Source: Styela clava (Eukaryota > Chordata > Ascidiacea > Stolidobranchia > Styelidae). From it: a stretch of DNA of 64,000 nucleotides. The translations under genes were made by a program, and so were the position numbers. Under the pieces are notes generated by a model. That model did no database searches. It was not told the DNA's origin and saw only the letters and a list, made by a program, of their open reading frames with translations. Shown one piece after another: positions 34,612 through 37,600 of this stretch; the stretch's first letter is position 1; the number at the start of each line of letters is the position of its first letter. Where the stretch lies: the NCBI RefSeq assembly GCF_964204865.1, contig NC_135261.1, positions 8,060,001 to 8,124,000 on the forward strand, in the 5' to 3' direction.

Positions 34612-37600
34612 TCATCTGTAAAGATAATCAGCTTCAATATTCGCTGCTATCTCCGCTTCCCATTTGTCACCATTATTAAGTAATTTTTCTTTGTTATACA
34701 AAAGTTCTTCATGTGTTTCTGTAGCATACTCAAAATTGGGACCTTCGACTATGGCATCAACAGGACAAGCTTCTTGGCAAAAACCACAATAGATACATTT
34801 TGTCATGTCAATATCGTATCGTGTTGTTCTACGACTCCCATCACTTCTTTCCTCGGCTTCAATCGTGATTGCTTGAGCTGGACATATTGCTTCGCACAAC
34901 TTGCAAGCAATGCATCGCTCTTCACCAGTTGGATATCTTCTTAATGCATGTTCGCCTGAAAAAAAATTAATGATTTATGATATCATTATTTCCATCTGAA
35001 GTAATCAGATTACTTCAAAGATACGAGGTGTGGCTAAAAAGAAACGAGACTGACGTCACAGATTGCGCAACACGATTAACCATTGGTAATCAACACTTTT
35101 ACAGTGTGGTGTAATATGTGTTCTTTGTTCAACAGCTTTTTTGACACAATATCGCAATTATTTTTGCTCTTTAGGAGCCATAGGTGAATGTGATTAATTG
35201 CTTGTTGAAAAAAAAATTGCCGTGCGAGATCTGATTGAGTTTTTTGGCGATAGGGGGTTCAATTGCAGAATGACGATTGAGCAATGAATTAACATTAAAT
35301 TTTGTGTCAAACTTGGAAAAACGGCGACTGCGACTTTGAAGAAATTGTGTGATGTTTATGGAGATTCTTCCATGTCCAGAACAAGAGTTTTTGAATGGCA
35401 CAAGCGATTTGTGGGATGCAGGGAGGATGTGGAGGATGATTCGAAGTCAGGAAGGCCTTGCACTTCCACAACTGATACCAACATCGAAAAGGTATCAGTT
35501 GTGAGTTCAGTTGTGAAAGGCAGTTGATTCGCAGCGACCGTCGCTCAACAATTCGCGTCATTGCGAAGTTGGAAAAGACAAAAAAAAACGGTTCGCACCA
35601 GTTTGGTTGACACTTTTGGCTTGTGAAAGGTGAGTGCCAAAATGGTGCCAAGGCTGTTGACTGAGGAGCAGAAAGCTCAACGATTAAATGTTGCCCAGTT
35701 GACATGCATTTTTCCAAGTTTGACACAAAATTTAATGTTAATTCATTGCTCAATCGTCATTCTGCAATTGAACCCCCTATCGCCAAAAAACTCAATCAGA
35801 TCTCGCACGGCAATTTTTTTTTCAACAAGCAATTAATCACATTCACCTATGGCTCCTAAAGAGCAAAAATAATTGCGATATTGTGTCAAAAAAGCTGTTG
35901 AACAAAGAACACATATTACACCACACTGTAAAAGTGTTGATTACCAATGGTTAATCGTGTTGCGCAATCTGTGACGTCAGTCTCGTTTCTTTTTAGCCAC
36001 ACCTCGTATGTATTTCATTGTATTCTGCCTTTATAGATGGAAGTCTTATATATTAACTGGAAAGTTCGCCAAGAGGAAACTTACATGCATTACATATTTA
36101 TCAGTGGAGGTTACGCGAGACTAACCATCCTTCCTCATTGCTTTTGCGCTAGTGGATCCGTATGCGTATAATGCAAGGATGCTGTAGCAGAAATATCAAT
36201 GGTCCTGCTGCACACTAACACAAATGTATTTCTGTAAAGTTCTTTTCCGGTTATTGTTGCAAACTGCTTGTCTGAGGAAGTCTGATTTTTGTCAGACGAA
36301 ACGTTACAGAAATACAATTGTGTTAGTGTGCAGCAGGACTCATGAATTGCATAGTATGTATTATATAGTTAGTATATTAATCAAAATTATCATTTCGTCA
36401 TTATCATTTGATATTCGTAGTTGGATTCAAAGGCCCCTAAGTTCATTCATAACCGAATGAAGTCAAATTATGCAAAGATTTCACTGAAAGCATCTAAAGT
36501 TAAACTCAATCCACTGTTCAAGTTATTAGTTGAGTATCATATTTCTCGTAAGTTGAGTCATTCCAGCGATTTTAATTTTTATAGGTCATCCCCAGTTGGG
36601 TCATAATATAAATTGGACTAAATTTTGGTTGTTGTCATGAAGTCTACTGTTGTAGTTCTATCTCAAGTTCTATACCTATAATGTAACACACTACACTTCA
36701 ATAGTGTGTGAAAATGTGGCATTGTCTATGTGGTCTGATAAATGAAACAATATGCCGGCCTTAGGCATATGTTGGGATGATGATGAAAACTTCGTTCAAG
36801 TATATAAATTACAGAATTACTATTTTCTAATTTCAAATTGGATCAAACTGCTTTAAAACACAGTATTCGAAATTTGATTTTCAGCATTGTCTCAATGAAA
36901 ATAAATGTGCTTGATATTTAAAAGACATATTTTTTACTCACAAGGGCACACATGAAACAACTAAAACTTCAGGTTGCATGAATAAATAAACATAAAAAAA
37001 TTATCACGTAATACATAGTAAAATCAAATGTTGGTGCTACATTTGATTTCTCCTTCAACCGAGAAGTCCATCAATCCCTCTATATTCCCACGGGATTCAA
37101 AAACACTAAACATATGCAGCATGCATAATGATGACTAGCTTTACAGTACATGTTTCAAAAAAATTTGGACCACCCATGGAAAAGATTGCTAAAATGTTTA
37201 TTTCTTACTAAACACAGATGAATAGGATACATGGATAGAAATCAGTTATTCATTTCCGATACCTGGACTTGAATTTAATCAATAACATTGATCTTTCCAC
37301 TATTGTATTTTTGTATAAATTTACATATTTATAACAGGGTAGCAAAAAGTGTAAGTTAATTTTGACTTCATAATCAGCAATAGACGATAAAATAATAGAT
37401 AAAAACGAAAAATAAAAGTAACTGATTATAGAATCGGGCAAAGCAAACAAAACCTCAAGAAGGTTTGAATCGTACAGATTGAAAGGTATTGAAAAAAAAG
37501 TAGTACATGTTTGCTCACCCAAGCTGATAAGACAGATTAATCATACAACTCTTAATATCATACGGCCGGGTATGGGATTAGTTAGTCAGTTATTCTGTTT

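Follow-up and report, generated by a model that had tools for sequence, protein, structure and literature searches.

The 64-kb window (the whole stretch of Styela clava DNA analysed here, 64,000 nucleotides) holds a 983-bp mariner element (35024–36006) within an intron of NDUFS8 (table 1). The exon frames on either side of this intron match solved NDUFS8 chains of the PDB (E = 7e-75 and 8e-22), and the donor GT at 37722 and the acceptor AG at 34956 join these exons in frame, this being the sole in-frame option among the four donor offsets tried. The element is the longest inverted repeat listed in the window, the runner-up measuring 86 nt at 87%; the 301-nt repeat called by the detection tool corresponds to the 298-nt arm plus three flanking letters (the TA and one other).

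Table 1. Features of the mariner element and of its host intron (positions in the window).
Feature	Position	Strand	Basis
NDUFS8 intron holding the element, 2767 nt, GT-AG	34956..37722	-	in-frame exon join and PDB matches
TA target-site duplication, left	35022..35023	.	sequence; TA on both sides in 55/62 near-full copies
left arm: mariner 5' end (terminal repeat, leader, start of transposase frame)	35024..35321	+	298/298 complementary to right arm
spacer: decayed N-terminal (DNA-binding) half of mariner transposase	35322..35708	+	HTH_48 match, stops, frame breaks
spacer/right-arm junction, marker of rearranged form	35690..35726	+	67 exact matches genome-wide, reversed control 0
right arm: inverted 5' end, class A (identical to left arm)	35709..36006	-	298/298 complementarity
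TA target-site duplication, right	36007..36008	.	sequence

A preliminary description of this locus had placed inside the NDUFS8 intron a mariner converted to a 298-bp perfect palindrome, with arms of equal length and free of any difference. The location is borne out by the exon matches and the in-frame GT-AG join, and so is the identity of the arms. Strictly, however, the palindrome is interrupted: a 387-bp spacer separates the two arms, which form an inverted repeat. The right arm is indeed, as had been proposed, an inverted copy of the 5' end, start codon included.

The transposase frame that begins in the left arm (start codon at 35270) meets a stop at codon 6. An open frame that also begins within this arm (35288–35527) matches the Pfam family HTH_48, the helix-turn-helix (HTH) of Mos1, with an E value of 2.4e-9, and the same Mos1-type N-terminal domain is present in a related copy described below (L082, E = 7e-7). 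The spacer matches SETMAR (E = 1e-4) and Mos1 (E = 0.13), and its translation is interrupted by stops and frame breaks. A DD34D catalytic domain was not detected in a domain scan of L082, and in the window copy the transposase part ends at the spacer/arm junction. In the absence of a catalytic domain, the element is thus mariner-derived and non-autonomous rather than a full mariner, and its transposase would have to come from elsewhere. By eye, the end of the element resembles the terminal inverted repeat (TIR) of Rpmar83, a member of the drosophila subfamily listed in a table of PMC4678618.

The same intron contains a second hairpin (36202–36339; 40-nt arms, 95%, 58-nt loop), part of which, near 36280, resembles a hammerhead core. 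This candidate was set aside, as the window gave no Rfam match at gathering score and only weak matches to miRNA models. Further MITE-like pairs of inverted repeats lie at 43468–43670 (57-nt arms, 93%), 24159–24989 (46-nt arms, 87%) and 62708–63065 (37-nt arms, 86%).

The rearranged form is not confined to the window. In the 376.6-Mb genome, the 37-mer spanning the spacer/right-arm junction has 67 exact matches, window included, and a 38-mer spanning the left-arm/spacer boundary has 59. We read the other 66 junction loci together with five more (L004, L005, L008, L075 and L076) and the window, which makes 72 young loci; the junction is present in 71 of them, L004 ending at element position 370. 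Near-full copies were defined by at least 900 aligned bases, with same places counted once (n = 62, window included). TA stands on both sides of 55 of these copies, their flanks form 60 distinct sets, 56 of them measure 982–985 bp, and seven, among which the window copy, are identical over the whole 983 bp. The family thereby has the traits of a MITE, namely a lack of coding capacity, the frame of the window copy being interrupted by stops, and many two-ended copies of the same size at independent sites. The window element is a copy of this non-autonomous mariner family, amplified after the rearrangement.

These flanks also bear on the quality of the assembly. Perfect inverted arms are a known product of fold-back reads, and an assembly or read artefact would accordingly resemble what is seen at 35024–36006. 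However, the repeat stops at the transposon ends and the TA, the flanks beyond are not palindromic, and single arms bear private mutations. The TA sites and the presence of 60 different flank sets among the 62 near-full copies make a misassembled fold very improbable, and we put the probability of such an artefact at next to nil.

Several individual copies have a history of their own. Three of them (L023, L024 and L025, at G000 C2, about 25.70–25.96 Mb) have common flanks and private changes, which looks like a segmental duplication; L018 carries most of these private changes, yet has different flanks. In the class B copy (see below) at L075 (986–1735), a second internal deletion took more than half of the spacer and left both ends in place. 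A class A copy, L045 (688–841), has an additional 154-bp terminal piece ahead of element position 37.

From the right arms of the 71 copies with a legible right boundary, a dichotomous distribution emerged at five diagnostic sites. Class A (39 copies, the window copy included) has right arms like the left arm, and class B (32 copies) has right arms that differ from it, at all five sites in 31 copies and at four in L050. The left arms agree at the diagnostic sites in 65 of 66 copies, the exception being L047. The class A copies have diverged by a mean of 1.5 substitutions per 983 bp. At substitution rates of 2.8e-9 to 7e-9 per site per generation, this class would be about 0.2–0.5 million generations old, a rough figure only.

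An older subfamily was reached with a 46-base pattern allowing up to two mismatches, whose 54 matches genome-wide were counted as 31 class B right arms and 23 matches in other elements. Eleven of the latter were read, ten of which have both arms; L094, whose right arm is missing, was omitted from the arm counts. The ten two-armed copies (954–967 bp) align nearly end to end with the window element at about 86–89%, the two subfamilies differing by 6–8% in the arms and by 9% in the spacer. With ends as placed, TA is found on both sides of five of the ten and on the right of all ten. L080, L081 and L082 have a common right flank and may represent one duplicated copy, so these three are not independent among the ten. 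When the ten older copies are aligned to the window element, their spacer/right-arm junctions all coincide with it to the base, without indels, and four of them (L080–L082 and L091) carry one substitution near the junction. We read this as one palindrome-forming event that predates the split of the subfamilies; the palindrome would thus be old.

Some of these older copies (L082 at 1492–2157, L086 and L091) keep a frame of 219–222 aa in which the HTH half of the transposase is followed by a tail specified by the inverted arm. A repressor role, for which selection would have preserved this shortened transposase (at most 222 aa in the older subfamily), is not supported: of 61 changes in the head of the frame, 9 are silent, 47 replace an amino acid and 5 create a stop (random expectation 21, 74 and 5 percent), without sign of selection in the codon counts. 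Outgroups sought in the viral and prokaryote collections gave 10 and 94 pattern matches, respectively, with no relative among them. A non-rearranged full-length (autonomous) relative was likewise not met among the 72 young and 11 older loci examined.

The common junction decides against an event in place, whereby a normal mariner already sitting in the NDUFS8 intron would recently have turned palindromic. Even though the perfect arms of the window copy (298/298) are what such an event would leave, the same junction occurs at 66 other places and in the older subfamily, and identical copies occupy unrelated TA sites. The common junction refutes this scenario unless the locus was ectopically converted by another copy of the family, its sole rescue, and we grant it a very slight chance. 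The rearrangement is thus old, and the copy reached the intron in palindromic form.

If the palindrome arose once and its arms evolved separately from then on, the two arms have had as long to diverge as the subfamilies or longer, and the left–right difference should therefore be at least as large as the left–left difference between subfamilies. The observed difference is smaller. Indeed, the majority (master) arms differ between left and right at no site in class A, at five in class B and at six in the older subfamily, whereas majority arms of different subfamilies differ at 17–23 of 296 sites (34 of 362 in the spacer). Between class A and the older copies, considering sites at which at least 80% of the latter agree (gapped sites and those below 80% omitted), there are 18 fixed arm differences. 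Of these, 14 show an identical change on left and right arms, three are on the left arm only and one on the right only; 0.29 paired changes would be expected by chance.

The same signal is found in a tree of 68 arms, built from both arms of the ten older copies and of those young copies that are closest to the window copy (12 of the 32 in class A and 12 of the 23 in class B). Both arms of the older subfamily lie on one side of a branch with a support of 100/100, although the program warned of incomplete convergence of the bootstrap, and a group of identical rows, found on both sides, was left free. A tree in which all left arms form one clade is rejected (AU p = 4.09e-6, lnL 64.9 lower).

Within the young family, site 262 bears T in the left arms and in class A right arms, and A in class B right arms and in both older arms; the class A right arm thus carries a left-arm change. 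The class B right arm, for its part, is not simply the ancestral one: compared with the older subfamily, it is ancestral at site 262 only and derived at sites 155, 157, 257 and 265. In three copies (L031, L048 and L054), a private change is present on the left and the right arm alike, where 0.019 such cases would be expected. Two of these double changes are at terminal-repeat positions 7–8. None of them recurs elsewhere in the set of 55 near-full copies flanked by TA at both ends (32 in class A, 23 in class B), and the simplest donor is thus the opposite arm of the copy concerned. Smaller patches also exist, as two right-arm letters lie within the left arm of L047 and one left-arm letter within the right arm of L050, the latter being possibly a back mutation. 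Finally, arm differences within class A copies total 27, versus a mean of 32.8 when right arms are shuffled among copies, and 27 or fewer were reached in a fraction of 0.0001 of 20 000 shuffles, a result probably driven by the double changes of L031, L048 and L054. Taken from sequence comparison, these patterns indicate that gene conversion between the arms has very probably occurred.

After insertion, conversion appears to be genuine but infrequent, and most new arm differences persist. In the 55-copy set, the mean number of arm differences is 0.84 within copies versus 1.03 between copies for class A, and 6.26 versus 6.26 for class B; these counts omit the seven near-full copies (of 62) that lack TA on at least one side, and class A gives 1.31 versus 1.46 when they are restored. 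With indels counted, just 14 of 32 class A copies have perfect arms. Likewise, the two arms of single older copies differ at 8–18 of about 296 sites (mean 13.2), and left and right arms of different older copies at 13.8.

Conversion at the level of subfamilies assumes that the junction arose once. Paired differences would need no conversion if each subfamily had built its own palindrome from its own 5' end with the same breakpoints. We hold such independent origins to be unlikely, since they would have to hit the same base in 10/10 aligned older copies, although breakpoints of rearranged mariners do cluster in one region in Rpmar17 of Rhodnius (PMC4678618). Moreover, the conversions seen in the young family (site 262 in class A, L031, L048, L054 and L047) need no single origin and are unaffected by this alternative.

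The perfect arms had first been taken to mean that the event was either recent or maintained by gene conversion. The second term is supported by the double changes, the 14 of 18 paired differences and the tree, whereas a recent conversion inside the NDUFS8 intron is contradicted by the junction at 67 places and at the same base in the older subfamily. Nor is the rearranged form a one-off, the copy-number check having returned 67 exact junctions genome-wide.

We consider it highly probable that the locus contains a non-autonomous mariner MITE that was rearranged once and amplified, one copy of which landed in the NDUFS8 intron, and whose arms were repeatedly homogenized by conversion. The 3' part of a mariner would have been lost once in the past and an inverted 5' end put in its place, probably through faulty gap repair or through a deletion between two oppositely oriented copies. 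As no autonomous relative was seen among the loci read, we infer both the lost 3' end and the source of transposase. With two like ends, the product could still have been cut and pasted by a transposase made elsewhere. The palindromic form amplified, and one copy entered a TA in the NDUFS8 intron, as the junction, the TA sites and the flanks show. The arms have very probably been made alike repeatedly, most likely within one element, and the pairing may have occurred in a hairpin, in a cruciform or during gap repair after excision. According to this account, the arms are perfect here because the copy belongs to a young class with left-arm sequence on the right arm and has had too little time for new differences. 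The hairpin is accordingly a mobile and old structure, which corrects its reading as a single event, and arm identity in palindromic elements is no reliable clock.

With its two classes and its single-copy patches, the family also offers a natural archive of conversion events between inverted repeats that lie 387 bp from each other. A bolder reading would make it a self-copying hairpin transposon, the arms of which template each other, spread or erase changes and keep both ends equally suited to the transposase, so that the family outlives ordinary MITEs, while transcribed copies offer near-perfect dsRNA as a side effect. It has an outside chance of being right; if true, the two classes and the single-copy patches would let the direction and the tract length of conversion be measured.

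The arms also raise the question of double-stranded RNA. In predicted folds, they pair in register at 298/298 positions on the plus strand and at 296/298 on the minus strand, and a duplex could thus form in the pre-mRNA of NDUFS8, where it might be a substrate for Dicer or ADAR as first suggested, and likewise wherever another copy is transcribed. NDUFS8 is expected to be widely expressed, and read-through of the intron might yield a 298-bp duplex that would be diced and would silence mariners in trans, a role that would add to the MITE nature of the element rather than replace it. A precedent exists in maize, where Mu killer, an inverted duplication, is proposed to work via a read-through hairpin RNA (PMC3440606). 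However, a non-rearranged full-length target is absent among the young loci (71 with the junction, L004 broken off) and the older ones (ten two-armed, L094 without right arm), and dozens of other copies have the same arms, so that the NDUFS8 locus is nothing special. A role as silencer appears decidedly unlikely.

The structure itself is already known in kind and joins the rearranged mariner MITEs; the comparisons that follow draw on the available sections of the papers cited. In Drosophila, 7 of 27 sublineages of mariner MITEs are rearranged, with a 3' portion replaced by 5' sequence and unusually long TIRs; they have a typical size of 900–1000 bp and form single-origin sublineages amplified by transposition (PMC4161770). 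Our family is like Dromar7, Dromar11, Dromar28 and Dromar36 in its probable 5'-for-3' replacement, long TIRs and 900–1000 bp size, and adds a case to a group whose origin is termed elusive by the authors of that study. By contrast, these sections of PMC4161770 mention, for the Dromar MITEs, neither classes of arms nor conversion between arms nor an older subfamily that shares the junction, and the words ‘gene conversion’ occur nowhere in its main text. More generally, we found no description of concerted arm evolution in mariner MITEs in searches of the open-access literature, although an earlier publication is possible.

In Rhodnius prolixus, Rpmar49 (970 bp) and Rpmar17 (922 bp) are non-autonomous mariners whose long TIRs were acquired by end replacement (221 bp in Rpmar49), for which a deletion between two neighbouring copies via abortive gap repair has been proposed (PMC4678618). 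The direction is opposite to the probable one in our family, as their 5' part was replaced by 3' sequence. Long TIRs are also described in Bari1 of D. rhopaloa (PMC4877112; identical TIRs), in aphid LTIR elements of the DD40-41D type (PMC5490172) and in Galileo (PMC4168063); these belong, however, to other Tc1/mariner clades or to another superfamily, and Bari1 of D. rhopaloa is putatively autonomous.

As for function, in vitro transposition of Mos1 and of Mboumar-9 works best when both ends carry the preferred repeat (PMC4505599) and, by analogy, two like ends may help the present element transpose. A process similar to arm conversion is found in Wolbachia IS elements, where one TIR serves as template and makes the other identical (PMC3004938); these elements are, however, bacterial, the mismatch concerns one position and there is no amplified eukaryotic family. 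Mu killer, lastly, is alike as an inverted transposon duplication with a proposed hairpin RNA action (PMC3440606), but silencing was studied there, whereas the family described here consists of many mobile copies known from sequence and folding.
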